Program-made: the position numbers and the translations under genes
Notes under the pieces: generated by a model
The model's input: only the letters and a program-made list of their open reading frames with translations
Database searches by the model: none
Told to the model about the DNA's origin: nothing
Source: a virus
Length of the DNA stretch: 37,022 nucleotides
Reading direction: 5' to 3' (one strand)
IMG/VR virus record: IMGVR_UViG_3300047444_000242
Location: 1 to 37,022 of that record
Shown here: piece after piece, positions 14,501 through 36,430 of the stretch
How positions within the stretch are numbered: position 1 is the first letter of the stretch
Layout: every line of letters starts with the position of its first letter

Positions 14501-15284
14501 GGGCTACCGCCCGCAGGGCTGCCGACAGCCCTGGCAGGACCATGTGCGCCAGGTCGTTGATGCCGTGCAGGAGCGGCTGGATCAGGGTGCCAGCCGAGGC
14601 GAAGAGCTGCTTGAGATCGGGCAGGAGATCATGCAGCATCTTCGGGATCTCAGCGAACGCCGTCCGCAGCGGCGCGACCAGCGGCTGGGCAGCCGCCTTC
14701 ATGGTGGACTCGAACGCCTGGCCGACCGGCTGAGCCGCGCCGTAGAGCTGGCCGGGGTCCTTCTTGGTCCCGATCAGGGTCTTGGCCCCGAGACCGATGA
14801 CGCCCGCGCCGACCGCGCCGACGCCGAGCGCGCCGCCGAGCGCGGCTGCGGCTGGCAGTGCCCCGGCCAGGATGCCGCCGCCGCCGACGATCGCGGCGTT
14901 CCGCGCGCTGATGCCGAGGATGCCAGGCCCGCCGCCGCGCCCGATGCCCGCAAGCAGGCTGGCTGCCGTCAGGCCGCTGACGCCAGCCCTGCCGCCGCTG
15001 CCGCCTTCGGCGGTGCGGAGCGATTTCCCGCCGAACAGCCCGCCGAGCACCGAGCCCTGCGAGCCGCGTGAGCGCTGGATCGCGTCCCGCGTGAGCTGCT
15101 GGTCGAACCGGCTGAACTCCTGCCGGGCACGGCTCATCTCGCTCTGGTCGATGACGGGCGTGATCTTCAGCTCGCGGTGATCGTCCTCGAACCGCTTGAC
15201 CCGCGCCTCGGCCTCATCGAGCTTGCGGTTGAACGCGGCCAGGTCTACATCGAGGTGAGCCTGGATCGCACCGGCATCAAACAC
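11580..15284 (-). CDS. Tape measure protein with NlpC/P60 and lysozyme-like domains
   Basis: A 1234-residue protein; start GTG at 15284 with a strong site (AAGGAGG) eight bases before it. Residues 1-75 are a charged coiled coil; 90-190 are Ala/Gly-rich; 190-600 are long hydrophobic helices typical of tape measures, which set tail length and pass into the host envelope. Residues about 905-1010 form an NlpC/P60 (C40) peptidase: DCSGF places the catalytic Cys at 932 and GHVAIV the His at 982. Residues about 1040-1100 resemble a phage tail lysozyme, with NIEQESGG giving a candidate catalytic Glu at 1060. Both would cut peptidoglycan during DNA entry. The C-terminal 130 residues continue past these domains. 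It directly follows the chaperone pair, as in most siphoviruses. Confidence 0.95.
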   Translation of the reverse strand: MFDAGAIQAHLDVDLAAFNRKLDEAEARVKRFEDDHRELKITPVIDQSEMSRARQEFSRFDQQLTRDAIQRSRGSQGSVLGGLFGGKSLRTAEGGSGGRAGVSGLTAASLLAGIGRGGGPGILGISARNAAIVGGGGILAGALPAAAALGGALGVGAVGAGVIGLGAKTLIGTKKDPGQLYGAAQPVGQAFESTMKAAAQPLVAPLRTAFAEIPKMLHDLLPDLKQLFASAGTLIQPLLHGINDLAHMVLPGLSAALRAVAPLLRPILDGFGQLIAGILPGLVSLLRAAAPVITVIAGVLGTLGRDLGSMLSDFAPVLKQSAVIFKALFDVVGALLPIIGQLAAIFARALAPIVSEFAKILVALMPTLIIVGKVIADLAGAVILDLVAAFKAIADVIIGISPALSTFAKAFSQVFTVLENSGVFAVIASALEAVSKPLATMISQILVGLTPLLPPLIKFLGQVTTVLAKGLASAIIALLPPLTTLAMTVIQALVELLPILLPLFTGLVNLLTPVFVRVIQDLALALSAVIRAVPASVLRDIALGFLAIWAAIKIGGLIASVSNPVTLIAIAVGLLIVGIVELAKHWNQVWTNVKNWAKDAWEFLTHGWGQFLMPGLTLIRLAVEFVRTYWRDAWQNMKDIGHNFYTWLWSDFGAKIVHFITVTLPNAWSSAVDSIRRLWGKVEDVVKAPVKFVIDNVLDGLISVFDTITGAIGLGSVHINQVHPFGLAAGGRITAGTGPVADDVLIRASKDETVVSAADSKTLAPIFAWLGIPGYQTGGRVGQPPSISAAQARFGTSVSPTGGSPIPGGGIIHNVTHAVGQAAATVGHAIAGIAGKAIDVGKMGLAFVTGNRKAFENAFADLLGLGTGGAAGIVAKILTQIPKKMVTDLVNWIMGKSATMGSGGEIAKYAASFLGKIPYVWGGTAVPGGADCSGFVQAIYEHFGIAAPRTSEAQGSWVKRSPPTTGGLAFYHSPAGGADPGHVAIVRNALQVISQGGGMGPQLMNIHAMPLLWTGVPPGGLGGAKGGHGGVPANAGAMAAYFASHGFTRNAIAGLLGNIEQESGGDPMAGTNPPGRGLIQILGDPGGSLAQELARTMVYIAQNGSVADINAHAGTPTEAAVYFSDKYERPGNPMIQNRIAGANASYAAGYAKGGVIREPIIGFGGSGRVYTFGENGAEYVTPAGPGGGPPGGAMIGNVHIQLPEGQTVARALSELTYWLKVAQQQGFAGVLPGG

Positions 15285-15627
15285 CAGGCTCGCCTCCTTC
15301 CGCCTGCCTGGCCCGCCCGGCTTCCAGCTCGGCCCTGAATGCCGTCAGGTCGAACACCTTCTGGCCCATGTCCACGCCCTCGCGGATCTGCGGACCCGCC
15401 ACGCCGGGTGTCATCTCGCCTGGCTCGCCGCCGCCCTCCTTCCAGGAGAACGGGACCGACTCATCCTCGGCCAGTCCCTCCAGGTAAGCCCTCTGGATAT
15501 CCCAGCTCAGCTCATCCCATTGGCCTGGCAGCAAGTCCAGGTAGCGCTTGACGGTGTAGAGGATTACGCGCCGCGTGCGGTGGGCAGCTTCGTTACCTGC
15601 CCGTTCCCACCTGGACTCGCGGCTTCC
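15277..15627 (-). CDS. Tail assembly chaperone, frameshift (T-type) extension
   Basis: This frame has no credible start of its own: the first start in it is far inside the upstream gene and gives an Arg/His-rich shadow. Coding-like sequence begins where the upstream gene ends (VILYTVKRYLDLLPGQWDEL) and runs about 97 residues to 15277, overlapping the tape measure start. In siphoviruses the gene before the tape measure is made as a short form and a frameshifted long form (lambda G and GT) that coat the tape measure and recruit tube subunits. The shift needed here is -1. The start given is the first shifted codon if slippage occurs at C_CCG_GAA (15630-15624); the exact point is uncertain. The long product would be about 240 residues. 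Confidence 0.8.
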   Translation of the reverse strand, partial: GSRESRWERAGNEAAHRTRRVILYTVKRYLDLLPGQWDELSWDIQRAYLEGLAEDESVPFSWKEGGGEPGEMTPGVAGPQIREGVDMGQKVFDLTAFRAELEAGRARQAEGGEPGV

Positions 15628-15995
15628 GGGGACATGACCTCGGCCTGGAGCCACGCGAAGAAGATGTTGCGGACCCGCATCGGCAGCGCCATGATCTGCT
15701 CGACGGTCGGGGTACCCGAGCACAGCGCCGAGTAGATCTCGGCCATCTTGCCGATCTGCTCGATGGTCTTGGCCGGGTCGAGATCCTCCATCATCGCCAG
15801 GAGCGCGGCCGGGTCGCTCTCCGTGATGCCCTCGGGAAGATCGGCCTCCACCTCCTTGATGGTGGCCTTGACCCCGGTCAGGAACGCCGCGATCTGGTTG
15901 TCGGTGGGCTCGGGGATGGTACCCCTGGCCGCGACGTACGGATTGAAATCCCAGTCGAGCGCCTCTACGACGCCCTGGGCCTCAAAGCCTGCCAT
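15564..15995 (-). CDS. Tail assembly chaperone, short (G-type) product
   Basis: A 143-residue acidic helical protein between the tail tube gene and the tape measure, the standard place for this chaperone. It has a helical core around NQIAAFLTGVKATIKEVEAD and VEQIMALPMRVRNIFFAWLQAEV, and a flexible Gly/Pro-rich tail where the frame can change. It is expected to bind the tape measure while the tube polymerises and is usually absent from the finished virion. The ATG at 15995 lies nine bases after the tube gene stop. Confidence 0.85.
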   Translation of the reverse strand: MAGFEAQGVVEALDWDFNPYVAARGTIPEPTDNQIAAFLTGVKATIKEVEADLPEGITESDPAALLAMMEDLDPAKTIEQIGKMAEIYSALCSGTPTVEQIMALPMRVRNIFFAWLQAEVMSPEAASPGGNGQVTKLPTARGA

Positions 15996-20360: not shown

Positions 20361-20987
20361 TTACCCTCCGACCTGCTGGGCCTGGCGCTGCCGGGCTGCG
20401 GTGCGCGGCGGCAGGATGTCCTCCGCGCTGACGTACGTCCCGCCAGCGCCGGGCTGCCCGTCCCAGTTCTCGCTGCCCGGCTGCGGCTCGCTGGCCTCCG
20501 GGATGGTCTCCTGCTGGAGTACCGCCGACGCGCCGACCGGATCGGGCATCGGCAGGTCCGTGCCCGGCGGCGGGATGGACGGAGCGCGCACCTGGCCGGA
20601 CACCGCGCGTGGCGGCACCCGCTGCTGTGCTTCCTGGGTTGACTTCGGCCCGCTGGCCGGGCGGATCACCGGTATCCGGCGTCCGTCGCCAGGCCCGCAC
20701 CGCAGGTATCCAGCCGCTTCCTCGGGCGTGAGGTTGACCGTATCGCCCGCCATCACCAGGTCCGAGCCCCGCAGCGGGTCGGTGCCGCGTCTCGGCACGT
20801 TCAGGTTGATCACCGCGATGTACGGGTCACCCGGACGGTTCGATGGCGTCTGCGCCTGGCTGGCCCGCGCCAGGAGCTGGTTCATCTGCTCCAGCTCGGC
20901 CTGGGACAGCGGCGTCTGCTCCGATGCCGCCGCGAACGTCTGCGGCGGCTCGGGGAGACGGCCTGCGGCTGGTCGCTGTGCTGGCAT
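20361..20987 (-). CDS. Pro-rich head-module protein, function unknown
   Basis: A 208-residue protein following the major capsid gene, with start and capsid stop sharing one base (TGATG). Residues 1-50 contain a helix (LSQAELEQMNQLLARASQ). Residues about 53-112 form a small beta domain (YIAVINLNVPRRG, then MAGDTVNLTPEEAAGYLRCG) whose second half recalls the GAGNLR-like small proteins. The last about 95 residues are Pro/Gln/Gly-rich and probably unstructured. It could be a capsid accessory or a scaffold-like helper; no firm assignment. Confidence 0.62.
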   Translation of the reverse strand: MPAQRPAAGRLPEPPQTFAAASEQTPLSQAELEQMNQLLARASQAQTPSNRPGDPYIAVINLNVPRRGTDPLRGSDLVMAGDTVNLTPEEAAGYLRCGPGDGRRIPVIRPASGPKSTQEAQQRVPPRAVSGQVRAPSIPPPGTDLPMPDPVGASAVLQQETIPEASEPQPGSENWDGQPGAGGTYVSAEDILPPRTAARQRQAQQVGG

Positions 20988-21898
20988 CAGACTCCGCTCA
21001 GGAGCACGATCGCCAGCGGCTGGTCCAGGCCGATGGCGGCTGCGCGCTGGGTGTCGGAGCGCCAGGTCTTGCGCGGCTCGTCGCGGTACAGCGGGCCAGC
21101 CATGAACGGCAGCTCGTCCGCGAAGAAGCCTGCGCGGTTGCGCTGCATGATGATCGCGTTGCCCGCCGGGACCTGGCGGGAGACCATCACGTCCAGGTTG
21201 AGGATCTGCTGCGGGAGCGTGCCCGTGTACAGCAGGTTCTCGCTGGCGATGTCACCGATGTAGGGCGCGGCGAACGTGCTGGACTGGAGCAGCGTGTTCT
21301 TCGTGCCGTGGTTGATGATCAGCGTGTCGGCCTCGAACCCGAGCCACTGCGTCACGCCGGACGGGGACACGATGTTGGCGTTCTCGATGAGGAAGACCGC
21401 CTGCATGATGTCCGCCCGGATGGTGGCGGCGGCGCTCGACCAGGCGTTGGCTACCGCCAGCGTCTGGATCGAGGCGTTGGAGACTACCGCCGAGTAGAAG
21501 GCGGTGTTCCAGCTATAGACCATCGTGTTCTTGACCTGGAGAAGCTGCCGCGCCACCGGGTCAATCGCCTGGCGGCGGCGCATCTCGTCGCTGACCATGA
21601 TGGCCATCGCCCGCTCATGGCTGAAGACCACGCGCGGGATGCCGACGCTGGTCGGCACGACCGGGACCTCACCGAACTCAGGCCGGATCTCGGGGTAGTC
21701 ATCGGCGTAGAGCGGGGTGCTCTCCGCGTACCTGACCGCGCCCGATGGGGCCGCGCCGCCGCTGCGCAGCACCGAGTCCATCACGAACTCATTCCTGGTC
21801 ATGTCCAGGATGAGCGACGGGATGACCAGCGGGTCCTTCAGCAGCTCGGAGACGGTTACCCGTGGGGAATCGGAGTAACTTCTGACAGCAGTCGGCAT
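20987..21898 (-). CDS. Major capsid protein
   Basis: A 303-residue protein with HK97-type shell protein character. An N-terminal arm (LLKDPLVIPSLILDMTRNEFVMDSVLR) is followed by the extended loop region (GAVRYAESTPLYADDYPEIRPEF). Then come the long spine helix (ERAMAIMVSDEMRRRQAIDP), the internal helix-strand domain (ADIMQAVFLIENANIV with GFEADTLIINHGT), and the closing strand near MQRNRAGFFADELP. The length fits an uncleaved short capsid protein. A good binding site (GGGAG) precedes the ATG. The gene lies after protease/scaffold and decoration genes, as expected. It builds the shell from hexamers and pentamers. Confidence 0.88.
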   Translation of the reverse strand: MPTAVRSYSDSPRVTVSELLKDPLVIPSLILDMTRNEFVMDSVLRSGGAAPSGAVRYAESTPLYADDYPEIRPEFGEVPVVPTSVGIPRVVFSHERAMAIMVSDEMRRRQAIDPVARQLLQVKNTMVYSWNTAFYSAVVSNASIQTLAVANAWSSAAATIRADIMQAVFLIENANIVSPSGVTQWLGFEADTLIINHGTKNTLLQSSTFAAPYIGDIASENLLYTGTLPQQILNLDVMVSRQVPAGNAIIMQRNRAGFFADELPFMAGPLYRDEPRKTWRSDTQRAAAIGLDQPLAIVLLSGV

Positions 21899-24687: not shown

Positions 24688-25569
24688 TCAGACCTTCTTG
24701 ATGAACTCGACTATGGGCTGGATGATGAACGGCAGCGCAGAGGTGAGCAGGGCGATCAGGTCCGGCACGCCCAGCCGGGACTCGACGTAGGCGGCGATGA
24801 ATCCCGCCACGGCACCGCCAGCCTCGATGGCCAGCTTCTTTGCCCTCCGCTGGCCTTCCACGGTCTCGTGCGCCGCGTTCGCTGCGGCTATCTTGTCGGC
24901 CACGACCTGCTGGGCCTTGGTCAGCACCGCCTGCGCCTTGGCCGTAGCCAGCGGCTCAACCTGCGTCTTCAGGAGCTGCTCGTGGATAAGTTGCTCGCGC
25001 CTGGTCGGCTGCACCTTGCCGGATACCTGGAACGCGACCTCAGCCGCCTTGTTCTCGGGTGCGATGTCAGCCGGGATCTTCGCCGCGATGGCTGCCGGGA
25101 TCTTCTGCGCTTCCTCGCTCGCCGCCTTCTGCGCTTCCTCGCGGGCGATCCTGCGCATCTGCGCTTCCTGCATCCGCTTGATCCTGGCCTGGCGGGACCG
25201 GGATGTCACCGGCTCCTGCGGCGGCCTGTACCCGGCCCGAGAGCCGGGACTGCCGCCGCCAATCCACTTGCCGCCCGGACCCCGCCGCTCGTGCATCCAG
25301 GCGTCACTGGCCAGCTCGACAAGCTGGCTGACGAGAGTGTCTCCCGCGAGCTGCTGAAGGATCGTGTCCTCGCCGTTCACAGGCCCAGTATCCAGCGTCC
25401 CCGCCAGCCTGTGAAGCATCGTGCCCGCATCCTGGATCTCGGTCAGCTCATCACCGGTCGCGGTGCTGGCCAGGCCGCGCACCTGCTGGATAGCGGTCTG
25501 CACCCGGCCCGCCGGGTCCTCCCAGGCCCACCGGGCAATGCTCAGTGCCTGCTGTCCGCGTGGCGTCAT
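24688..25569 (-). CDS. Helical head-module protein with GGKW-type linker and C-terminal hydrophobic segment
   Basis: A 293-residue protein overlapping the 1248-residue gene by ATGA. Residues 1-85 are helical. Around residue 95 it carries HERRGPGGKWIGGG, a variant of the RDxxGRW linker of its neighbours. Residues 120-240 are a long, highly charged helix rich in Ala, Glu, Lys and Gln (probable coiled coil). The C-terminus has a hydrophobic region (GGAVAGFIAAYVESRLGVP then LIALLTSALPFIIQPIVEFIKKV) that could be a membrane-active or pore-like helix. The arrangement suggests an internal head protein delivered with DNA, but this is inference; no family is recognised. Confidence 0.6.
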   Translation of the reverse strand: MTPRGQQALSIARWAWEDPAGRVQTAIQQVRGLASTATGDELTEIQDAGTMLHRLAGTLDTGPVNGEDTILQQLAGDTLVSQLVELASDAWMHERRGPGGKWIGGGSPGSRAGYRPPQEPVTSRSRQARIKRMQEAQMRRIAREEAQKAASEEAQKIPAAIAAKIPADIAPENKAAEVAFQVSGKVQPTRREQLIHEQLLKTQVEPLATAKAQAVLTKAQQVVADKIAAANAAHETVEGQRRAKKLAIEAGGAVAGFIAAYVESRLGVPDLIALLTSALPFIIQPIVEFIKKV

Positions 25570-28500
25570 GCTGCCCTCTCAGCCATCTCGCGCTGCTTGT
25601 CGGCCACCTTCTGTATTGCCACGGCCCTGGCCGCGCCGAACGCCTGCTTGGCCGCGCCCTCGGGATTGCCGGTGTTCCACTGGTGGAGGATGGCATCCGC
25701 GATCTTCATCGTCAGGTCATCCATGAACGTATTGTCAGCGCGCAGCTTCGGGTCCTTGGTCATGGCGTAGGCGAGCTGCTGGGACATGATCCCGAGCTTG
25801 CCAGCCGCCCCCTGGCGGTTGACCTCATCCGTCAGCTCGACTATCCGCGCATGACCGGCCTTGTTGCCGAGATCCTGGATGCCTTCCTCCCTGGCGATCT
25901 GCTGCACCCAGTCCTGGGCGTCCTTGGTCTGGGTCGGGTAGTGCTTCCAGCCGTTGCCGTTGGCAATTTCCTCCGGGTTGTCGATGGTCACGGCCATCTC
26001 GTGCACGGTATGCCCTGGGAATCGTGGCGTCGGCCGGTCCCCGATGCCTATCTGGTCGAAGAACTCGGCCGCGTGATGGGTCGCGCCCAGCTCGGTGAAG
26101 CCTTCCTCGATCTGGGAGATGGCGAAGACCTGGTACGCCTTCTTGTTGTCGGCAGCGGAGCCCTCCGGGACCGCGCCGTGGAACGTCTCATGCAGGATCA
26201 CCTCGAACGCATCGGGCTGCTTCACGTCACCGGGCAAAGACATGTCGTCCTGGAGCGCCTGGGCCACGTTGGAGGCGACACTCATCGTGCCGTCCCACTC
26301 CATCTCGGCCAGGACTTCCTTCTGCTCGCTGTACAGGAATAGCTTGACCTTGCCGTTCCACTCTTCGTGACTGCCGCCGATCGCCTTGGGCACGAACTCG
26401 GCCGCCGGGGTAGCCACCCTGGCGACCGCAGCCTTCAGCGCAGGCTCATTCGCCATCGGAGCGCCGACAAACGGGTCAGCCGCCGCGCGGATCAGCTTGT
26501 GGAGGTTCAGTTGCTCGCGCTGGCCCCTGGTCCACCGGCCCCGGCGGTCGCGCAGCTCGTCCGGGTTGAAGTGGGGAGCGAACTGGAAGATCTGCCCGCT
26601 GATAGTAGGCGGCTCGTCCTCCCCCTCGTCATCCTCGGGCTCGGGAGCCTGGACCGCCTCAGCCTGGGAGCGCCACTGGCCGGGACCAGCGAAGTGGACG
26701 GTATCCGGTGTCGCCATCGCCGCTCCTTCCGCTACGTGAGGTGGCCAGTAACCGTCGCCTGTCCTGAAATGGTATGCGCCCCCGATGGCTCTGGTGTACG
26801 CACCGATCGCCTCGACTTCCTCGGGGGTGTCCACTACGGCTACCGGGTCGATGTCAATCCGGTTCAGGTCATCGTCGTGGAAGATCCCCAGGTAGAAGCC
26901 CCGGCGCTCCAGGGCGGGCCGGAACTCGTCCTTAGCCTGGTCCATGGCCCGGCTGAAGTCGGGGTAGCTGGCGTGCTCAGGGATGCTGATCGAGTGCATG
27001 CCCCTGGGCTTGACCGACAGGGCGTACTTGTCCGCGCCCTGCGGCAGCGCTGAGCCGGTATGACCGTCGATCGTGCCGCCGCCCCACGGCTTGCGCACCT
27101 CGGCGTACATGTCGCCCTTGATCTCGGGCCAGTACTCGTCCATGCCGTGGATCGGGGAGCTGTCCCGCTTCATTTTGTCGATCATCTGGTTGCCCTTGGC
27201 GGCAATGTGCTGGTACTCGTCAAAGCTGACCGGGCGGCTGTTGCCGCGCGCCTCGGCGGCGGTGATCACCGGCCGGACCCGCTGAGACTTCCTCGGGCCT
27301 GGCATCAGCGACTCGGCGGCCTTGCCAGCCCCGGTGCCGGGCACCTTGACCCAGCGGCCCTTATCATCGCGGGGCTCGGCCGGGTCGAACCGGAAATCGA
27401 GCACCTGGGCGATCAGCAGCTCGTTGGCCCACGACTCGGACATCGGGCCGGTGGTGCCGGGGATCAGCTCGTACTTGTGCCGCGCGGCCTCGGCCTGCCA
27501 GCGCGTCCAGGAGTTGCGCAGCATGGTGTTCCGGCCCTTGGACAGCCGCCGACCGCCCCGGCTGGCGGTCACAGTCTCGGCCTGGCCGATGTGCGCCTCG
27601 TCCTCGGCCTCGTTGATCCGCTGCTGCCGCAGCCAGGTGATCGCCTGGAGCTGGTGAGGCGAGACCGGCGTGCCCCGCTTGCTGATCTCCAGGGCGGCAT
27701 CGCGGTAGGTGTCGGCCACGTACTGGTAGTAGCGGTCGTGGCCGATCGGGGCCTTGTCGGCTTCCTTCTTCGGGATGCGCTTGCCCATGGCCACGGTCAT
27801 CGCGTGCCGGTCGATCACGACCTGGCCGGACGTGTCGCCGGGCTCATCCCCGCCGTACCGGATCAGCCGGGCGAACGCCTTGGTCTTGGAGCTGGAGTTG
27901 GCAACGTCGGCAGCCTCGCCGTCGATGGCTTCCTGGGCGTTGCGCTGCATGGACTGGGTGATCATGCCCTCGCCAGGCCCGAGCGCGCGGCCGAGATCCA
28001 GCGACCGGTCGGCATTGAGCATGTTGACGGCCCAGCCGGTCTGCGGCGACAGCGCGGCGATCACGCCCGCGTTCTTCTCGATGTCGCCGTGGTCCATCTT
28101 CTTGGCCAGGTTGTGCGCGTCGGCGTACCAGCGCATCCCCTGCGCCCGCTCCTGGGCGTCGGAGTCGTCGTAGGCGGCCACGATGTGCGCCGCGCTGACC
28201 GGGTTGGCCTGGAAGAACGGGTGATCACCGGGCATCTTGTACGTGGCCCGGCTGCTGCGCAGCCGCTCGGGGTCCGGCTTGACGTAGCCAGCCCCGGTCT
28301 TCGTCCACCGGCCGCGCACGTCGCGCTTCTCGAACGGGTCGAACTTCCAGCCCAGCTCCATCGGGATGGCGCTCTCCACCAGCGTGGAGTTGCCGAGCGG
28401 CCGGGCCTCGATGCCCATCTGCTGGGCGAACTGGTTGGCGTACGGGATGGCCAGGTGCACCGGCAGGTTGATCCGCTGCACCTCGATCTCGCGTGGCCCG

Positions 28501-29312
28501 TTGCCGCTGAAGGCCAGCGCCTCATCAGACGCCCAGCGGTGGTGCCCGTCGATCACGTAGTTATCGCGCGTCACCCATATGGGCTCCTTCAGCATGTGCC
28601 GGACCTTGGCGTTGCCGCTCTCGGCGGCCTTGGTGATCCCGGCAACGGTGGCGGCGGTGAGCTGGGTCTGGGTGGCGCGCAGGTTACCGGCCGGTACGCG
28701 CTCGTTGCGGACGTCGATGCCGTCGCGCCTGAGCTGGGCACGGAACTCGGCGTCCAGCTCGATGAACTTGTTGGCCCCGCCCGCCAGCAGGGCGGCCTCG
28801 GTACCAGGCAGGGCCGGGCCGTTGAGCTGCGGCATGGCGGTGCGCGGGATGCCCCTGGTCTGCTCGTTGAACAGCCGGGTGCCCCGCACGCTGATGTTGC
28901 CCAGGTCCCAGCCCGGCTCATGACCCCGGCTGTAGCCCTGCGCGGTGGCCTGCCGGTCCACCTCATCGAGCAGCGGCTTGATCTCGGCCGGGCTGTTCAG
29001 CCGGACATGCTTGCCGCTCGCCATCAGCGCCACGGCCCGGCCCATGTCGCCCGCCACGTCGATCGGGTCGGCTGCCGTGCCGTCGCCCTGCGCCCGTCCG
29101 GGCTGCTCCAGCGGCTTGCGCCCGTCCGCTGGCTCCATCGACGGCACCAGCGGGTCGTAACCCATGAACTTGCCCTGGTAGCCGTGCCGTTCCTGGCCGG
29201 GCTCGCTGGGCACCGTCGCGCCGTGCGTCCACCGGCCGCGCGTGTCGCGTTCCTCGTGCAGCCAGCCGGTATGCGCGAGGTCCGTGGTGAACCACTCCAG
29301 CAGCTCGGTCAT
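25566..29312 (-). CDS. Multidomain (polyvalent-like) protein: ParB-like, helical, unknown and HExxH peptidase domains
   Basis: A 1248-residue protein starting with a TGATG overlap. Modules are separated by the linker RDTRGRW (residues 22-28), RDVRGRW (about 327), RDDKGRW (about 649) and RDRRGRW (about 921). Between the first two lies a ParB/sulfiredoxin-like domain: a strand IWVTRDNYVIDGHHRW, with DGHHR at 255-259. Residues about 340-640 are a helical domain with IAALSPQTGW (about 417) and VVIDRHAM (about 498); some phage proteins of unknown function share this, and an HhH-glycosylase-like fold is a guess. Residues about 700-890 are unrecognised (DGHTGSALPQG; FHDDDLNRIDIDP). The last part is a metallopeptidase: HETFH at 1041-1045, with Glu in IEEGFTEL about 25 residues on as likely third ligand. 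It is probably a head protein carrying enzymes into the cell. Confidence 0.8.
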   Translation of the reverse strand: MTELLEWFTTDLAHTGWLHEERDTRGRWTHGATVPSEPGQERHGYQGKFMGYDPLVPSMEPADGRKPLEQPGRAQGDGTAADPIDVAGDMGRAVALMASGKHVRLNSPAEIKPLLDEVDRQATAQGYSRGHEPGWDLGNISVRGTRLFNEQTRGIPRTAMPQLNGPALPGTEAALLAGGANKFIELDAEFRAQLRRDGIDVRNERVPAGNLRATQTQLTAATVAGITKAAESGNAKVRHMLKEPIWVTRDNYVIDGHHRWASDEALAFSGNGPREIEVQRINLPVHLAIPYANQFAQQMGIEARPLGNSTLVESAIPMELGWKFDPFEKRDVRGRWTKTGAGYVKPDPERLRSSRATYKMPGDHPFFQANPVSAAHIVAAYDDSDAQERAQGMRWYADAHNLAKKMDHGDIEKNAGVIAALSPQTGWAVNMLNADRSLDLGRALGPGEGMITQSMQRNAQEAIDGEAADVANSSSKTKAFARLIRYGGDEPGDTSGQVVIDRHAMTVAMGKRIPKKEADKAPIGHDRYYQYVADTYRDAALEISKRGTPVSPHQLQAITWLRQQRINEAEDEAHIGQAETVTASRGGRRLSKGRNTMLRNSWTRWQAEAARHKYELIPGTTGPMSESWANELLIAQVLDFRFDPAEPRDDKGRWVKVPGTGAGKAAESLMPGPRKSQRVRPVITAAEARGNSRPVSFDEYQHIAAKGNQMIDKMKRDSSPIHGMDEYWPEIKGDMYAEVRKPWGGGTIDGHTGSALPQGADKYALSVKPRGMHSISIPEHASYPDFSRAMDQAKDEFRPALERRGFYLGIFHDDDLNRIDIDPVAVVDTPEEVEAIGAYTRAIGGAYHFRTGDGYWPPHVAEGAAMATPDTVHFAGPGQWRSQAEAVQAPEPEDDEGEDEPPTISGQIFQFAPHFNPDELRDRRGRWTRGQREQLNLHKLIRAAADPFVGAPMANEPALKAAVARVATPAAEFVPKAIGGSHEEWNGKVKLFLYSEQKEVLAEMEWDGTMSVASNVAQALQDDMSLPGDVKQPDAFEVILHETFHGAVPEGSAADNKKAYQVFAISQIEEGFTELGATHHAAEFFDQIGIGDRPTPRFPGHTVHEMAVTIDNPEEIANGNGWKHYPTQTKDAQDWVQQIAREEGIQDLGNKAGHARIVELTDEVNRQGAAGKLGIMSQQLAYAMTKDPKLRADNTFMDDLTMKIADAILHQWNTGNPEGAAKQAFGAARAVAIQKVADKQREMAERAA

Positions 29313-31147
29313 CAGGCCGCCTTGGCGCGGGCCTGCTTCTCCAGCTCGCCCGCCTCGGCCTTGCCAGCCGCCGCCCGGACCTCGGGATGGACGTGCCCGC
29401 CACCGCGCGACCAGCGCCGGATCGCGGCCCGCGCGATGGCGTACGCCTTGCCGGGCGGCATGCCGCGCTTCTCGATCAGCGCCTTGACGATCTGCTGCTC
29501 GTACGGGGTGTGGCCCATGCCCTTGACGTGGTAGAGCCCCGGCCCGCCGGGCTTGCCGCGCGGTGCTGGCGTGACGCTCAGCCTGCCGGTGTTGGCGCTC
29601 AGCTCGGTGGCCATCTGGACCTGCTTGCTGCGGGCCTGGGCCAGCACCGCCTGCGCCTTGTTGTGCTGCGGCCCGCCCTTGCGCAGCTTGCCGTACAGCT
29701 TCTGCTTGCGCGTGTCCCCGCCGAACACCTGCGTGAAGCCCTCAGCCTCGCGCTTGGACAGGTGCCTGCCGAAAGGGCCGGTGATACCCGGCACGCCGGT
29801 CATCGCCCGGTTGCGCTCAGCCTGCTTGCTGACGTGGACCCCCTTGCCGCTGCCCTTGGGAGCGAACAGGTTCTGGAGGCCCTTCGCCTCACGGTGGGAG
29901 ACGTGGCTGCCGACCATGGCCCTGGCAGCCGATCCGGGCTGGAACTCCCCGTGGCTGAGCTTGCCCTTCTCACCGGGCATGCCACCGCCCATGACCCCGG
30001 CCGCGTCCCGCAAGGAGCGCCTGATCTTGTCGGCCTCCAGCTTGATCCAGCCGTGCCGGTAGCGGAAGGCCAGCTCAATGGCGTTGTCTATGTTCTCCCA
30101 GGAGTACCCGATGGTGGTGGTCAGCTCGCCGGGGTGCCTGACCGTGGACGGGTAGTAGCCGGGGCCGTGCTTGATGCCGGGCTGGCCGGTGCCGATGGAG
30201 CGCGGTGCCCGCCAGCTCTCGTCCTGGGCGTAGGTGCCCCTCGGCACACCGGACAGGCTGCGGCGGATGCCGACGACAACGGCATGGCTGCCGGTGCCGC
30301 GTGTCGCGCGCTCCGCGACCGACAGGTGCACCCGGACGCTCTTCATGTCCCGCTCGCCCAGCGCCCGGCCTGCGTTGTGCAGCGCGTTCGCTGCGATATC
30401 GCTGGTTGACCGGACAGATTCCGCTGCTGCCATGATGGCCCGGATGTGGCCGAAGTCACCGGGCTTGCCGGTGTAGTCGAGTTTCTCCGACCGGGCGTGG
30501 TGGCCCGGAGCACCGCGCCGTGCCTGCTCCGAGACGCCCAGCGCCCGGACCAGCCCGGCCCGCTGCGCCATCCGCATGCTGGCCGTGTTCCGCATCATGC
30601 CGGGGATGCCCTGCCACCGGCCCCAGCGGTCGCGCGGCTGTGCCGGGTTGAACGCCAGCTCGACCGCCCCGCCGTCCTCGTTGGCGAGCTGCCGGATCTG
30701 GGTGGTGAGCGCGGCGATCATCTGGGTGATGATGGCCGCCGCCTCCTTGACGGTAAGAACATGCCCCTTGGCCGGGGCCTTGCCAGCCGGTGCCCCGGCC
30801 TTGGCCTGCTTAGCCGACGTCGCCGCCGCGCCCTTCTTGGCAGGGGTCGAGCTGGCCGACTTGCGGTGCACCACGGCCTTGCCGGTGGCTGCCGCCGTGG
30901 CTGCCCGCTGGGCCTGCCGGGCGGTGAGCTGGTTATGCTCCAGCTCGGCCAGGATCTTGCGCAGCGCCTTGATCCTGGCCGCCAGCGCGGCCTTCTTCTG
31001 CTGGCTCGCGGTCGGCGGCGGCTTGCCCTTGGCCGCTGGCTGGCTACCGGGCGGGGCGAACTGGCCGCCGGTAGCGGCACCGGCTCCTACGCGGGGCTGG
31101 GCCGGGTTGAACAGCTCGATGGCTAGCTCAACTGAGCCCCAGCCGGG
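29312..31147 (-). CDS. Frameshift extension of the head-module protein (no start of its own)
   Basis: This frame gives about 611 residues from the slip site at 31147 to 29312. Coding-like sequence begins before the upstream stop (SVELAIELFNPAQPRVGAG, with a GGQF turn), then a coiled coil (KKAALAARIKALRKILAELE). The first ATG, GTG or TTG in frame is a GTG at 30874, about 90 codons inside this sequence, so I do not accept it as the main start. A second linker, FNPAQPRDRWGRW, lies near 30614-30660, and ELAFRYRHGWIKL near 30042-30080 repeats a motif in the upstream gene. The C-terminus is basic helix (KRGMPPGKAYAIARAAIRRW). No enzyme motif was found. The fused product with 31123-32511 would be about 1066 residues. 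It overlaps the next start as TGATG. Confidence 0.75.
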   Translation of the reverse strand, partial: PGWGSVELAIELFNPAQPRVGAGAATGGQFAPPGSQPAAKGKPPPTASQQKKAALAARIKALRKILAELEHNQLTARQAQRAATAAATGKAVVHRKSASSTPAKKGAAATSAKQAKAGAPAGKAPAKGHVLTVKEAAAIITQMIAALTTQIRQLANEDGGAVELAFNPAQPRDRWGRWQGIPGMMRNTASMRMAQRAGLVRALGVSEQARRGAPGHHARSEKLDYTGKPGDFGHIRAIMAAAESVRSTSDIAANALHNAGRALGERDMKSVRVHLSVAERATRGTGSHAVVVGIRRSLSGVPRGTYAQDESWRAPRSIGTGQPGIKHGPGYYPSTVRHPGELTTTIGYSWENIDNAIELAFRYRHGWIKLEADKIRRSLRDAAGVMGGGMPGEKGKLSHGEFQPGSAARAMVGSHVSHREAKGLQNLFAPKGSGKGVHVSKQAERNRAMTGVPGITGPFGRHLSKREAEGFTQVFGGDTRKQKLYGKLRKGGPQHNKAQAVLAQARSKQVQMATELSANTGRLSVTPAPRGKPGGPGLYHVKGMGHTPYEQQIVKALIEKRGMPPGKAYAIARAAIRRWSRGGGHVHPEVRAAAGKAEAGELEKQARAKAA

Positions 31148-31153
31148 AAAGGG
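31121..31153 (-). promoter_or_regulatory. Probable programmed -1 frameshift site: slippery heptamer plus stem-loop
   Basis: In the zero frame of the upstream gene, the codons CCG CCC CCT TTC contain C_CCT_TTC (31153-31147), which fits the canonical X_XXY_YYZ form: both tRNAs can re-pair on CCC and TTT after a -1 shift. Two bases later comes a hairpin: GGCT pairs with AGCC (outer stem), GCTC with GAGC (inner stem, loop AGTT), with an internal bulge. The zero-frame stop TAG lies inside this hairpin, at 31125-31123. The -1 frame continues for 611 codons. Confidence 0.75.
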
Positions 31154-32511
31154 GGCGGCCCCATGGGGTTGGAGTAGCCCATCGGCGGGACCGCCGACCC
31201 GGCCTGGAACGAGCGGCCGATGCTGCGCGCGATGGCCAGCGCCTTGTTGTGGCTGTGCCCCTTGGCCCGCGCTGCCCGGTAGATGCGCTGCTGCCGGGCG
31301 GCTTCCTTCGCTATGGCCTTCGCCTTGTTGCGGCCCATCCCGGCGGCGTACTTGCCCGCGTCGGCGCGCTCATCGGCCAGCATCTTCGCCCGGCTGGTGG
31401 CCGGGGGCCTGCCCTTCGGGCCGACCGTCTTGGGCTGCGTGCCGTTCTCGAACCTGGCAGCAGCACGCTCGATCCGCTGGACCAGGCCCGGCCCCTTCTT
31501 CTGCCGTGTCTCCAGCGGGAAGCCAGCGCCGCTGGCAGCAACCTCGGCCGCCGACCCGGCGTGCCACGTCCCGCCGAGCTTGCCCCTGTTCGGCATGCCC
31601 GGAAAGTCGCCTATGACCGCGCCGTAGTCTGCGGCACCCCTCCCCGGCCTCACCTTCGCTGCTGCTCTCCTGGACGCGAGAGTCCCCTTGAATGCAGCGG
31701 TACTGCGATTGGCTCGTTCCACGGCTGCCGTCGCGGCCCGCTGACGCGGAGACACGCTGCCGCCGCCGTCGAGCCTGATCCAGCCGTGCCTGAAGCGGAA
31801 CGCCAGCTCCAGGGCATCGAGCTGACTGGCGTGCTTGCTGCCGAGCTTGGCGAACCCCTTGCGCCCGTACTTCTTGCGCCCGATGTACGCGGCCAGCGCG
31901 CCGGGGTTGCGGGCACCGCGCTTGGCCAGCACGCCCTGGAGCTTGGCGAAGTTCTTGCCCGATCCCGGCTTGGCCCCGGCGAAGGTGGCCAGCTCGATCG
32001 CGTGCAGGTGCGTGTCCCAGCTCGCGGCGACGGCAACTGGCGGTGCTGCTCTCATGGCTCTCTCCTGATCCCGGACGTCGCGGCGGTGCTGGCCGATGGC
32101 GCGGTTGGACCCGTGCACGTCCTCGATGTCCTTGATCAGCAGCAGGTGCCGGTGCGCTTGCTGCATCATCGCCTTGCCGCGCATGTGCCCGGCATCGTCG
32201 TGCACCCCGTGCCGCCGCAGTTGCAGCGGCTGGAGACCGAAGATCGCGGCGTTGACGTGCCGCTGGGCGCTGTGCGTCCGGCCCGAGTCCAGCTCGCGCG
32301 CCGCGTCCTGGAGGTGCTGGTGCACGTCCATCTCGGGGTAGGAGGTGGCCATGTTGGTGGCCAGCTTGCGCAGCCCGCTGCTGGCGCGGGCCTTCATCTC
32401 CCCGGTGGCGATCTTCCGGCTGAAGACGTGCTCGGGCTCAGGTCCCGGCGGCGTGGTCACAGGCGGGGCGTCAACGCCGATCGGCCGCTGGTTGTCTGCT
32501 GCTGCTGCCAT
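31123..32511 (-). CDS. Head-module protein, zero-frame product of a frameshift pair
   Basis: A 462-residue protein; start ATG at 32511, four bases after the MuF-like gene stop (a 20-residue upstream extension is rejected as overlap). It is basic and helical. Residues about 90-165 are His-rich. About 197-215 holds GARNPGALAAYIGRKKYG, a motif also found at 23846. About 234-246 holds ELAFRFRHGWIRL, repeated in the frameshifted partner. The C-terminal region (KGHSHNKALAIARSIGRS, about 416-434) is another shared helix. Codons CCG CCC CCT TTC seven codons before the TAG form the slip site, so ribosomes could end here or continue in the -1 frame. The function is unknown; probably an internal or minor head component. 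Confidence 0.72.
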   Translation of the reverse strand: MAAAADNQRPIGVDAPPVTTPPGPEPEHVFSRKIATGEMKARASSGLRKLATNMATSYPEMDVHQHLQDAARELDSGRTHSAQRHVNAAIFGLQPLQLRRHGVHDDAGHMRGKAMMQQAHRHLLLIKDIEDVHGSNRAIGQHRRDVRDQERAMRAAPPVAVAASWDTHLHAIELATFAGAKPGSGKNFAKLQGVLAKRGARNPGALAAYIGRKKYGRKGFAKLGSKHASQLDALELAFRFRHGWIRLDGGGSVSPRQRAATAAVERANRSTAAFKGTLASRRAAAKVRPGRGAADYGAVIGDFPGMPNRGKLGGTWHAGSAAEVAASGAGFPLETRQKKGPGLVQRIERAAARFENGTQPKTVGPKGRPPATSRAKMLADERADAGKYAAGMGRNKAKAIAKEAARQQRIYRAARAKGHSHNKALAIARSIGRSFQAGSAVPPMGYSNPMGPPPFPAGAQLS

Positions 32512-32515
32512 GGTC

Positions 32516-33193
32516 TCACGCTGCCTTCGCGTATGCCCTCTCGGGCCTGGCGCTCGGAAGCATTCTCGCACCGATGCGCGGCGGTCCCGCGTAGCACCGG
32601 CAGTGCGGGTGCACCGAGCCGGGGTAGCCGATCAGCGGCGGCGAGCTGGCGTAGAAGTTCGCCCCGTTCGCGGCGCGGCAGTCAGCACTGGTCCGGGAGT
32701 CGAGCACCGTCCGCCAGCCGAGCAGGTCGCCGTAGTTCCACGCGGCCATGTCCACGTTCATCGCGGCCTGCGCCCGCTGCCAGATCGCGTCCCGGTGCTG
32801 GCCGAAGTAACGGCGCTCGCGGGCCATCCCAGCCGCGAGCGCCTGACGGATGCCCTCCCCGCGTGACCGCGCCTCAACCACGTCGCTGGTCAGGCGCTTG
32901 CTCGCGTTCAGCGCGAACTGGGCGCGGCGGATCAGGTTGGTGCGGCTGGCGTTCAGCGTGGCCGAGCCCACTGCGCCAGTCTGCTCGGGCGGCATCTCCA
33001 TCACCACCATGAGCGCGATCAGCATGGCCCGGCGGTCGATCTTCCTCGGCCTCAGCAGCGCGGCGACCGCGCTGAGCGCGGCGGCTGCGGTGACCGCGCT
33101 CACCAGGGCGGTGGCGATCACCGCCACCGCAGCGGCGTCCTGTCCGGCATCAGAGGGAGGCGGCTGCGGCGGCGGCTGCTGCGGGGTGCTCAC
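32516..33193 (-). CDS. MuF-like minor head protein (phage head morphogenesis family)
   Basis: A 225-residue protein with GTG start overlapping the portal stop (GTGA). Residues 20-47 are Ala-rich and hydrophobic; 60-140 are helical. The C-terminal part contains GWRTVLDSRTSADCRAANG followed by a Pro-Pro turn and VHPHCRCYAGPP, the cysteine/histidine pattern of the SPP1 gp7/Mu gpF head morphogenesis domain. Proteins of this family are few per virion, sit near the portal, and often carry effector domains downstream. Here the long head genes just after it may be the corresponding cargo. The gene follows the portal as usual. Confidence 0.82.
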   Translation of the reverse strand: MSTPQQPPPQPPPSDAGQDAAAVAVIATALVSAVTAAAALSAVAALLRPRKIDRRAMLIALMVVMEMPPEQTGAVGSATLNASRTNLIRRAQFALNASKRLTSDVVEARSRGEGIRQALAAGMARERRYFGQHRDAIWQRAQAAMNVDMAAWNYGDLLGWRTVLDSRTSADCRAANGANFYASSPPLIGYPGSVHPHCRCYAGPPRIGARMLPSARPERAYAKAA

Positions 33194-34767
33194 GCCAGCC
33201 GTCCCGGCGGCGGGGTGGACGGCGGTTTAGCAGGCGGTGTCCGCTGCTGCGCCGCTGCCAGCGGCTGGCCGGGCGGCGGTCGCATGGAGGCACCTTGCGG
33301 CCTCATGGCCGCACGGTTCGCAATGGCGGTCGCGCCCGTCGCCAGCCCCTGGAGACCGCCGAGCGCACCGGCTGCCTCGGGCGGCATGCCGGGCGGCGGC
33401 TGGGCCTGGAGCGCCTCGGCGCGCTGGGACATGGTGGACACCAGCGCCTGGTGCACCTGGTCCACGTCGAGCTGGAGGATCGAGGCCATCCGCTCGGTGA
33501 TCAGGTCCACCACCTGGATCGGGATGTGCAGCGCGGGAGCCGCCGCGATCTGGCCGAACAGGGTCAGCAGCGCCTGCTCCTGCTCGTCCTGGAGCGGGCC
33601 GAACTTGGCCTGCGGGAACGCGGCGTCCGGCCCGAAGTTGAGCACCGTCAGCGGCATGATGATCTGGTGGGAGTACGCCTGGGCGATCTCGGCGGCCACG
33701 CCCTGCCGGGACTTGAGGTAGAAGCTGGACTGGTCCTGGCTCAGCGCGTAAGAGCCCTTGCCGCCTGTTGCGCTGGAGGTCAGCGCCATGAACCCGGCCA
33801 GAACCGAGTGCACCTGCCAGCCCTCCAGGAAGCTCAGCGCGTCATTGAAGAACTTGCCCGAGTCGGCGTTGTTCTCCATCACCTCGAACGCCTTCTGGCC
33901 CTGCTGCGGCTGCTCCATCCCGACCACGCCGCTGCTCTTCAGCGCAGCGATCGAGTCGGCGCGGTCGTTGGCGGTGGGCTGGTCCGGCCCGTAGACGACC
34001 ACGCGGGGCAGCGCCTGGGTCTCCAGGAAGTGGTACCAGAGGTAGAGCAGCTTCATCTTGGTCTGATAGCACCAGTAGCTGACCTCCATCTCCGATGCCC
34101 CGGTCAGCGGCTCGCGGTGCTTGCCGTGGGTGTAGATAAACGACCGGACGTGCGGGATGTCCACGTAGCCGGGGACCTTCTGCCGTGCGGCCTGCGCCAT
34201 GAGCTGCCCGCCGAACAGCCAGACCTGCTGGCGGAAGCCGTGCGGTGCGGCGGTCCTGGCGTTGTAGCGGGCCTGGCAGGTGGCGCTCGGGCGGAAGCCG
34301 ATCTTGTCGTAGATGATCTTGCCGTCGCTCTCGCGGATCTTCCAGACCTTCTCGAAGAACGCCCGCCGGTAGATCTGGCCGGACGTGATCTGGCCGATCA
34401 GGTCCACGTTGGGCGTGCTCATCCCGCCCGCGTGGTCCGGGGTCATCAGCACGGACTTGGCCAGCTCCAGCTCGCCCTTGTCGCCCTTGGCCCCCGCGAT
34501 GTCAAAGTCAGCCTCGCGGATCGGCAGGGTCAGCGCGGCCTCTACCGCAGAGCACAGCCCGTCCCGGCTGAACATCGTCTTCATGTCACGGCTTGACCAC
34601 TCACCGTAGTCAAAGACATCGCCCTCGCCGTAGTAGGCGAACAGCCGCTGCCCCCAGTCGAACGAGGTGCCGATCTCAGGACCGAGCAGCTCGCGCCGGT
34701 TGGTCTTCAGGTCGGGCAGCTTCAGCACCTGGGCCAGGGTGCCGTTCGCGTTCTGGCTGGGAGGCAT
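33190..34767 (-). CDS. Portal protein
   Basis: A 525-residue protein between large terminase and MuF-like gene. The conserved pattern fits Mu gp29-type and related portals: an N-terminal segment with FSRDGLCSAVEAALTLPIREADFDI, the wing region (QITSGQIYRRAFFEKVWKIR), HVRSFIYTHGKHREPLTGASE with a following Trp/Tyr-rich helix (YLWYHFLETQALPRVVVYG), and the stem helix region (SQDQSSFYLKSRQGVAAEIAQAY). The C-terminal 70 residues are Pro/Gln-rich and probably disordered. The dodecameric ring forms the DNA gate and binds terminase. The ATG at 34767 lies inside the terminase gene, an overlap of 92 bases. Confidence 0.88.
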   Translation of the reverse strand: MPPSQNANGTLAQVLKLPDLKTNRRELLGPEIGTSFDWGQRLFAYYGEGDVFDYGEWSSRDMKTMFSRDGLCSAVEAALTLPIREADFDIAGAKGDKGELELAKSVLMTPDHAGGMSTPNVDLIGQITSGQIYRRAFFEKVWKIRESDGKIIYDKIGFRPSATCQARYNARTAAPHGFRQQVWLFGGQLMAQAARQKVPGYVDIPHVRSFIYTHGKHREPLTGASEMEVSYWCYQTKMKLLYLWYHFLETQALPRVVVYGPDQPTANDRADSIAALKSSGVVGMEQPQQGQKAFEVMENNADSGKFFNDALSFLEGWQVHSVLAGFMALTSSATGGKGSYALSQDQSSFYLKSRQGVAAEIAQAYSHQIIMPLTVLNFGPDAAFPQAKFGPLQDEQEQALLTLFGQIAAAPALHIPIQVVDLITERMASILQLDVDQVHQALVSTMSQRAEALQAQPPPGMPPEAAGALGGLQGLATGATAIANRAAMRPQGASMRPPPGQPLAAAQQRTPPAKPPSTPPPGRLA

Positions 34768-36430
34768 CTAACCGCCAATCGCGCCGGTTGGGGCTCTGGC
34801 CGTTCGGCTTCTCGTCCTCGTGCGGGGCGAAGCTGTCCAGGCCCCAGTCTCGCTCTTGATCGTAGGCCCCGTTATGCGCCTCGGCCAGCTTGCGCTGGGC
34901 TCGGGTGGCCTGCGGGTCGGTCAGGACGCCTGCCAGCGGCCCGGTGACGTCGGTGCCGGTGTCCAGGTCATCGGAGCGCAGCCACTCCCGCTTGCCGCCG
35001 GGGACCGGCGGGCCGAACCAGGTGTCCAGGAACGGGTAGCAGGCCCACACCAGCGAGTCCAGCCGGTCGGGGGAGCGCTCGCCAGCCGCCCCGGTGAAGC
35101 TGCACATCTGGTCTTCCAGGTCCACGAAGCGCTCGGTGTCGGTGTGCCAGACCTTCTCCCCGCTCTGCGGGTCGGTGATCTGGTAGGTGACCTGCTTCTG
35201 GCAGTGCCGGACGATCTTGCGCTCGTACAGCGCGCTGACCGGCTCGGCGCGGGTGCGCTTGGCGTGGCTGGCGTGCACCTCGCGGTAGCGGACCCGGCCG
35301 ACGTCCTTCATGACCTGCTCGAACGTGGCCTTCAGCCACTCCCCGCCGTGGTTCTGCTCGACCACCAGCGTGGCGTCCAGCTCCTGGGCCTTCTTGATCA
35401 CCCGCTTGGCGAACATGACCGGGCTCTCCTGCCCGCCCCAGCTCTCGATCACGTACAGGTGCGGGTCATCGACCATGCCGCGTCCCACCACGGTGTACGC
35501 CTGCTCGTCGCTGTCTTCCTTGCCATCGGAAGGGTCCACGCCGATGAAGACCTGGGTCAGCCAGGGCGGCCCGCCTTCCTCGTCCACGCCGGGGCTCAGG
35601 CAGGACTCGATCAGCTCGCGGGTCCACAGCGCGTTGGCGACGTCATCGAGCAGCTCGCCTTCCAGCTCCTGGCGCTCCAGCCGGGTGCCCTTGGCGCTGC
35701 CGACCACCGTCCGGTAGAACGCCTCGGACAGGTTGGCGATGTTGTCGATGGTGCGCAGCCGCCGGGTGATCACGCCGCCGTGCTCGGGCTCGTTGCGGAT
35801 CAGCGAGCGGATCAGCTTGCGGGCTGACATGCTGACCTTGGGCGTGCCTGTGGCGATGATCTTGGAGACACCCTGGCGCACCGCGTACTTGAGTGACTCG
35901 CCCCAGGCCACCTCCCACTTCTTCCACAGCCCGATCTCGTCGCACCAGGCGGCCCGCAGGTTGCGGCCCTGGATGCGCAGCCCGCCCTCGTCGGCGCTGT
36001 CCACGTAGATGATCAGCCCGGAGTGCAGCACCACCTGCCCGTAGGTGCGCCAGGCCGACCGGACGATGTTGGAGCGGTGATCCTTGACCTCGGCCATCGA
36101 GGTGCCCAGCGCCCGCAGGATGCCGCTCTCGCCCTCCACGCACTTGGTCCAGGCGTCGGCGTAGGTGGGCGCGATGATGCCGTACTCGCCCTCGGTGTCG
36201 GTGTCGTCCAGGATGATGTCCGCCAGCCCCTGAGCGCCCGCACGGGTCTTGCCGCTGCCGCGCCCGCCCTGGAGGTAGAACACGCGCCACGGGTCGGGCA
36301 GCGGCGGCAGGATCTGCTCGGGCCGGGCCACGCCAGCCCGCCACCGCACGCGCGGGTCCTTGACCGGCTGGCTGAGCCGGGTGTCCGCCCACTCGGCCAG
36401 CAGGCTGGTGTCGGCCTCAGCGACGGTCAT
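34676..36430 (-). CDS. Terminase large subunit (DNA packaging motor)
   Basis: A 584-residue protein. The ATPase domain has Walker A GGRGSGKT (residues 55-62), Walker B near AAWCDE (about 160-165), and the coupling motif IIATGTPK (191-198). The nuclease domain starts with FIGVDPSD (catalytic Asp about 299) and ends with DRLDSLVWACYPFL, whose Asp is a likely further metal ligand. It cuts concatemeric DNA and pumps it through the portal using ATP. The C-terminal about 30 residues overlap the portal start in another frame and are Arg/Pro-rich, so they may be a late addition. Its ATG overlaps the stop of a possible 42-residue ORF. Confidence 0.95.
   Translation of the reverse strand: MTVAEADTSLLAEWADTRLSQPVKDPRVRWRAGVARPEQILPPLPDPWRVFYLQGGRGSGKTRAGAQGLADIILDDTDTEGEYGIIAPTYADAWTKCVEGESGILRALGTSMAEVKDHRSNIVRSAWRTYGQVVLHSGLIIYVDSADEGGLRIQGRNLRAAWCDEIGLWKKWEVAWGESLKYAVRQGVSKIIATGTPKVSMSARKLIRSLIRNEPEHGGVITRRLRTIDNIANLSEAFYRTVVGSAKGTRLERQELEGELLDDVANALWTRELIESCLSPGVDEEGGPPWLTQVFIGVDPSDGKEDSDEQAYTVVGRGMVDDPHLYVIESWGGQESPVMFAKRVIKKAQELDATLVVEQNHGGEWLKATFEQVMKDVGRVRYREVHASHAKRTRAEPVSALYERKIVRHCQKQVTYQITDPQSGEKVWHTDTERFVDLEDQMCSFTGAAGERSPDRLDSLVWACYPFLDTWFGPPVPGGKREWLRSDDLDTGTDVTGPLAGVLTDPQATRAQRKLAEAHNGAYDQERDWGLDSFAPHEDEKPNGQSPNRRDWRLDASQPERERHPGPGAEAARPEDQPARAARS

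Follow-up and report, generated by a model that had tools for sequence, protein, structure and literature searches.

In phages, a −1 frameshift site between two overlapping ORFs is a long-standing arrangement of the tail-assembly chaperone genes, which account for 2397 of the 2476 joined SEA-PHAGES genes according to PMC10885494, the other 79 being hypotheticals. Recoding is also known from head genes: gene 10 of phage T7 (10A/10B, a joined CDS in NC_001604) has a frameshift near its end and yields a short and a long product, and a −1 frameshift in the major head protein of phage A2 is named in a title cited in PMC10885494. Corrective (compensatory) frameshifting, in which a harmful indel is offset by recoding, has been set apart as a third class, with most of the known cases being mitochondrial (Atkins et al., 2016; PMC5009743). 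Furthermore, frame transitions in prokaryotes have been sorted into pseudogene and recoding clusters (Antonov et al., 2013; PMC3711429).

Here, we describe two ORFs, A and B, in a virus record of 37,022 bases with 69% GC (the whole stretch analysed, referred to as the window). We propose that −1 frameshifting at a CCCUUUC heptamer probably rebuilds a protein of ~1066 residues that relatives make directly, which would be a case of corrective recoding. Like the tail-assembly chaperone genes, the locus has its putative −1 site where two phage ORFs overlap, but it concerns another gene, and the break is found in one small clade. As in T7 gene 10, a frameshift in a head-region gene would give a short and a long product. 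The T7 gene encodes the major capsid protein, whose long form, by the CDS coordinates, exceeds the short one by only ~53 residues, whereas the putative product here is a modular minor protein extended by 611 residues, and most relatives of A-B do without a shift. The A2 case is likewise −1 recoding of a head gene and, by its title, concerns the major head protein, unlike A-B. With these two precedents, a frameshift in a phage head gene is less unfamiliar than the initial annotation of the site had assumed. With the corrective cases the locus would share a harmful indel offset by recoding; in contrast to the mostly mitochondrial examples, it belongs to a dsDNA phage, has a bacterial-type heptamer together with a hairpin, and is a prediction from sequence. 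Among the papers listed in a literature search, titles and abstract openings contained no case of corrective −1 frameshifting in a phage head region, and of the papers found for CCCUUUC together with frameshifting none concerned phages, judged by title.

Results

All identified genes of the window are on the minus strand. ORFs A and B are located between the genes of the large terminase (34676-36430), a Mu-type portal (33190-34767) and a MuF-like protein (32516-33193) on one side and the gene of the major head protein (20987-21898) on the other; the tape measure protein is encoded at 11580-15284. ORF A (31123-32511) defines the zero frame and has 462 codons from the ATG at 32511, with the GTG at 32571 as another possible start. 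ORF B lies in the −1 frame (29312-31147), which ends at 29312 and contributes 611 residues after the shift, the same length that the initial annotation had counted for the open −1 frame. Judged by gene position only, the A-B product is probably a minor protein of the virion head region. The gene at 25566-29312 encodes a multidomain protein of 1248 residues, in which DUF7178 was recognized (E 5.8e-35). It has several RDxxGRW-like repeats and resembles the polyvalent proteins described in PMC5512222, which is a matter of resemblance only.

On the minus strand, the 3' end of ORF A reads CCG CCC CCT TTC CCG GCT GGG GCT CAG TTG AGC TAG. The slippery heptamer C_CCT_TTC (31153-31147) falls in the zero frame, and the TAG that ends ORF A (31125-31123) follows after seven sense codons, as initially annotated. 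A −1 slip would change the pairing from CCU to CCC and from UUC to UUU. Such an X_XXY_YYZ heptamer in the zero frame before a stop, combined with an open −1 frame, is the arrangement of bacterial and phage −1 frameshifting. In E. coli, C_CC.U_UU.C is reported among the high-level frameshifting patterns, and H_HH.U_UU.Y as one of the most efficient classes (Sharma et al., 2014; PMC4066793); slippage may differ with the tRNAs of the phage's own host. Frame B opens after a stop at 31372-31370 and contains no ATG, GTG or TTG from there to the GTG at 30874 (30872-30874), 90 codons 3' of the shift site, which agrees with the gap of about 90 codons described before. Anti-Shine-Dalgarno pairing at this GTG is weak (−2.0 kcal/mol).

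In-frame X_XXY_YYZ heptamers occurred only four times in the 11,843 codons of 28 hand-picked minus-strand ORFs, and two of the four, C_CCT_TTC and T_TTC_CCG (31144-31150), overlap at the junction. The chance expectation is ~0.03 heptamers in the ~82 codons over which the two frames are open together. As evidence of selection this figure says too much, since an in-frame CCC TTT is present at the homologous place in L011, the nearest relative in which A and B are fused. The heptamer was probably inherited from such an in-frame CCC TTT and is for that reason not an independent proof of selection for slippage.

Four more records carry the break, the heptamer and the TAG, with identities to the window of 99.97% (L002) and 97-98% (L003, L004 and L005). 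All five are separate records and represent two lineages; L004 and L005 are identical across nearly all of the shared gene. Contig ends apart, MAFFT placed a single indel inside the shared gene, a difference of 3 nt between the heptamer and the TAG that keeps both frames, where blastn opened 3 to 8 gaps. The comparison of relatives suggested together with the initial annotation came out in favour of the site: CCCTTTC and the order of the frames are conserved in 5 of 5 records with the break, including the window, from two lineages. The tail of A beyond the site, seven residues long and eight in L003, varies by Q to R, S to N and the 3-nt insert.

A small two-stem hairpin that begins 2 nt downstream of the heptamer and spans the TAG had been pointed out in the initial annotation. 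It indeed forms when 29 nt of the window are folded (−12.6 kcal/mol, z −1.9), but the 49-nt fold prefers a larger hairpin (31095-31144; −24.1 kcal/mol, z −2.9), which starts 2 nt after the heptamer and is predicted in the lineages of both the window and L003. Longer folds of the window resulted in z −1.9 (69 nt) and z −2.6 (81 nt). In L003, the small hairpin is not formed in 30 nt after the 3-nt insert (−4.9 kcal/mol, z +0.5), and we rejected it as a conserved element, whereas the larger one reaches −25.3 kcal/mol and z −4.4 within 50 nt (z −4.4 to −4.6, depending on the length). Its inner stem, GUUGARC/GUUCAAC, is capped by AGC/GCU and enclosed by the outer stem (GG)CUGGG/CCCAG(CC). When 57 nt of L003 are folded, the outer stem accommodates the 3-nt insert as a bulge, and the main helix begins 7 nt after the heptamer; in the 73-nt fold the inner stem is retained and the outer stem altered. 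As read from the predicted structures, one G-U pair in the window corresponds to A-U in L003, and an A/C mismatch to G-C. No equivalent hairpin appeared in the 50-nt fold of L011 (−12.8 kcal/mol).

Fold strength at the site was also ranked against other positions of the same contig. For 50 nt, the window is in the 1.7th percentile, which is the best of eight offsets (4.4-13.7 for the others), and L003 in the 4.2nd. The values were unexceptional for 60 nt (5.8 in the window, 16.6 in L003) and diverged for 75 nt at offset 0 (16.1 and 1.1). Altogether, a downstream hairpin is predicted in both lineages, which amount to two sequences only, with z −1.9 to −2.9 in the window, and we regard it as moderate support for frameshifting.

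With two lineages carrying the break, the codon test consists of one comparison, that of the window with L003. Between the heptamer and the GTG at 30874, the 14 changes are distributed over positions 1, 2 and 3 of frame B as 1, 1 and 12 (12/14 at third positions; binomial 8e-5 against equal thirds), and in the other two frames 13 of the 14 fall in residue-altering codons. Frame B has a dN/dS of 0.06 in this stretch and of 0.22 after the GTG, and it is free of stops in both lineages; over the 198 nt that precede the heptamer, the same frame has a value of 3.0. For ORF A, dN/dS is 0.30, and third positions of the A frame account for 9 of 12 changes in the region 100-400 nt upstream of the heptamer (window against L005). 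The last 100 codons of the A frame are weakly constrained (dN/dS 0.52; 3.5 synonymous and 5.5 non-synonymous changes) and its last 100 nt hold two changes, so the frame switch is not placeable exactly. Ahead of the TAG, reading in frame B gives a silent change and a conservative replacement (S to T), against two replacements in frame A; after the TAG, frame B shows 10 synonymous changes and 1 non-synonymous change. We conclude from this codon pattern that frame B appears to be translated in a stretch unreachable from any standard start.

Synonymous changes are denser between the heptamer and the GTG (12 per 73 sites) than after it (11 per 398) or in A (17 per 343). Recombination could account for this, conceivably by the entry, once the frame was broken, of a block from a fused relative 3' of the site, although the raised divergence covers both sides of the heptamer.

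Scans with the two end domains returned 38 loci and 9 loci of distant relatives. Of the 46 loci L014-L059, several of which share contigs, 41 have both end domains, and L027, L036, L037, L051 and L056 were dropped for missing one of them. Grouping at 90% identity over half the shorter interval resulted in 24 clusters. Both end domains are encoded in one ORF in 32 of the 41 loci, the other nine being eight loci of the window clade and L025, and in 22 of the 23 clusters other than that of the window. One continuous predicted A-B protein is consequently the usual state. Lengths vary among the fused ORFs, as do the modules that separate the end domains, and the exact junction is present only in L011 and L012; two further viral scans around the junction brought up, among the matches listed, only the window clade and these two, with one known contig absent from the first listing.

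In L011, the ORF has 1069 codons, compared with 1066 predicted for the fusion. It aligns to A through ..PF and then to the −1 frame, and its junction reads in one frame as GCC GCG CCC TTT CGC GTT GTA GAG CTG TTC. Relative to L011, CCCTTTC of the window is one base out of phase, with one base missing ~10 nt upstream in the alignment (31163-31164; the placement depends on the alignment and the polarity is deduced). In addition, the stretch after CCCTTT (31118-31147) is longer in the window, and the extra nucleotides hold the left hairpin arm and the TAG: the spacing between CCCTTT and GAGCTG is 30 nt in the window, 33 nt in L003 and 9 nt in L011, and the excess of 21 and 24 nt is a multiple of three in both cases. 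Because one base is lost upstream and the downstream differences are multiples of three, the frame would be broken just before the heptamer and restored by a slip at the heptamer. Since the other clusters are fused, we infer that L011 represents the older state. Relatives in a single frame (22/23 clusters) and one non-triplet indel near the site are two of the features expected of corrective frameshifting, and both were found here.

The distant relative L025 (3003-5262) has the end domains of A and B in two ORFs, and the GTG of B overlaps the end of A, which indicates that a split form is tolerated. By eye, the short overlap has no X_XXY_YYZ, and we rejected L025 as a second frameshift in view of its overlapping GTG. 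One argument against frameshifting named beforehand was a relative in which a normal start separates the two frames; L025 is such a relative, but it is distant and its split lies at another position. In L070, an AIELFNPA word considered as the start of a separate gene was undecisive, with the frame open from 92 and an ATG at 98.

The N-terminal all-helical domain of ORF A is common to the relatives and was modelled by AlphaFold2 with a mean pLDDT of 85.8. The most conserved part is the C-terminal domain of ORF B (~100 residues), for which the model is poor (66.2). Neither A nor B matched a family in Pfam or PHROGs at E 0.01, and weak matches only (best 0.0056 and 0.0055, respectively) resulted when sequences from the B-domain alignment were compared with PHROGs and those from the A-domain alignment with Pfam. 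A PDB profile search with the B domain resulted in one match with E 0.03, and Foldseek with the A domain model resulted in none in the PDB with E <= 0.001. No tblastn match was obtained in the phages collection for A and B (E 1e-5) or for the C-terminal domain of B (E 0.01), and none of the 24 pattern-matching stretches from a scan of genome contigs with A1 was confirmed as a relative.

By eye, the A-B proteins (29312-32511 on the minus strand; 4968-8177 in L011) are chains of modules, several of which are preceded by AIELA/VELA-like words, and the modules hold FRHGWI(K/R) or FNPAQPRDxxGRW-like motifs. On a speculative note, these words and motifs may be processing sites or sorting tags. The VELA/AIEL words of frame B span the TAG and, again by eye, resemble those preceding other modules.

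Discussion

The −1 frameshift joining A and B, as put forward in the initial annotation, is the best-supported reading of the locus, with the break in five records, purifying selection on the −1 frame and fused relatives. ORFs A and B would be one gene. Ribosomes translating A would meet C_CCT_TTC, where the tRNAs could re-pair one base back on CCC TTT. The downstream hairpin would aid the slip, and perhaps the slow decoding of Pro-Pro-Pro-Phe does too, in that ribosomes stalled on a run of prolines could slip more often. Slipped ribosomes would continue in frame B and produce a fusion of ~1066 residues (455 + 611), and non-slipping ribosomes would stop at the TAG and release the 462-residue A product. 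The arrangement would have originated when one base was lost shortly before an in-frame CCC TTT and slippage made up for the loss. We infer slippage, its efficiency, the deletion and the role in the head region from sequence comparisons.

A stronger form of this explanation, which includes the slip and overlaps with it in probability, is a regulated system that makes short A and long A-B in a set ratio, of the type of lambda G/GT or T7 10A/10B. Partial slippage would normally give both products, A is itself under constraint, and the hairpin is predicted in both lineages. Nevertheless, the fused form is near-universal, A alone is encoded in no relative seen but L025, and the tail of A after the site is variable. 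With 22 of 23 clusters fused and a break that appears as a one-base loss, the set ratio of a short and a long form that had been suggested at the outset is unsupported, and we consider it unlikely; a useful short A form is possible but likewise unsupported. Given the fused relatives, and a CCC TTT that seems to have been in place before the base next to it was lost, it is the long form that calls for an explanation.

The main rival to frameshifting is that B is a separate protein, initiated at a non-standard codon just after the TAG (ATC 31120 or CTG 31114) through coupling to the termination of A. The two codons lie 2 and 8 nt past the TAG, anti-Shine-Dalgarno pairing before the ATC (−4.7 kcal/mol) is no worse than at several listed starts, and the constraint on frame B after the TAG (10 synonymous, 1 non-synonymous) would fit equally well. 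A real split, with an overlapping GTG, exists in L025. However, ATC and CTG starts are very rare, and a standard start would be easy to evolve. Furthermore, A-B is a single chain in 22 of 23 clusters, the length changes relative to L011 preserve the frame of CCC TTT, and the changes in frame B ahead of the TAG are milder than those in A, a weak sign in the same direction. Together, these points make a non-standard start distinctly improbable compared to a slip at CCCUUUC.

A fixed frameshift mutation that left B dead or nearly so, as a decaying pseudogene, would agree with a break at which one base separates the window from a fused relative, but it is very hard to reconcile with the low dN/dS of frame B on both sides of the GTG and with the absence of stops in two lineages. 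Although the records come from metagenomes and have GC-rich runs close to the site, an assembly or sequencing error, unless a systematic one, is next to negligible as an explanation, given the identical break in five records of two lineages and the recovery of fused L012 and broken L004 from the same sample (3300046678). Transcriptional slippage was rejected with a longest run of five C, and an internal start at GTG 30874 was rejected as the sole explanation, which would leave the upstream constraint unaccounted for.

The steps by which programmed frameshift sites originate can seldom be seen. One gene here combines a fused relative, a difference of one base, a pre-existing slippery run and a clade-specific hairpin arm, so that each step can be rebuilt and measured. 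As a tentative and rather doubtful extension of the corrective reading, the locus may be a frameshift caught soon after birth: a one-base deletion next to an in-frame CCC TTT, rescue by slippage, gain of a 21-nt hairpin arm and a maintained signal that perhaps makes a new short protein. Automatic annotation would split A-B into two genes.

Some further observations were made along the way. The left hairpin arm sits in the extra segment and looks, by eye, like the bases that follow it in inverted form (both within 31095-31147), so that the 21-nt segment has the appearance of a templated quasi-palindromic insertion. Two overlapping minus-strand ORFs, 15564-15995 and, in the −1 frame, 15277-15723, precede the tape measure gene; in the heptamer count of the hand-picked ORFs, both were without an in-frame X_XXY_YYZ, and by position the pair is tail-chaperone-like. 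Finally, a further in-frame C_CCT_TTC is present inside ORF B itself, at 29771-29777 on the minus strand, 153 codons before its stop.
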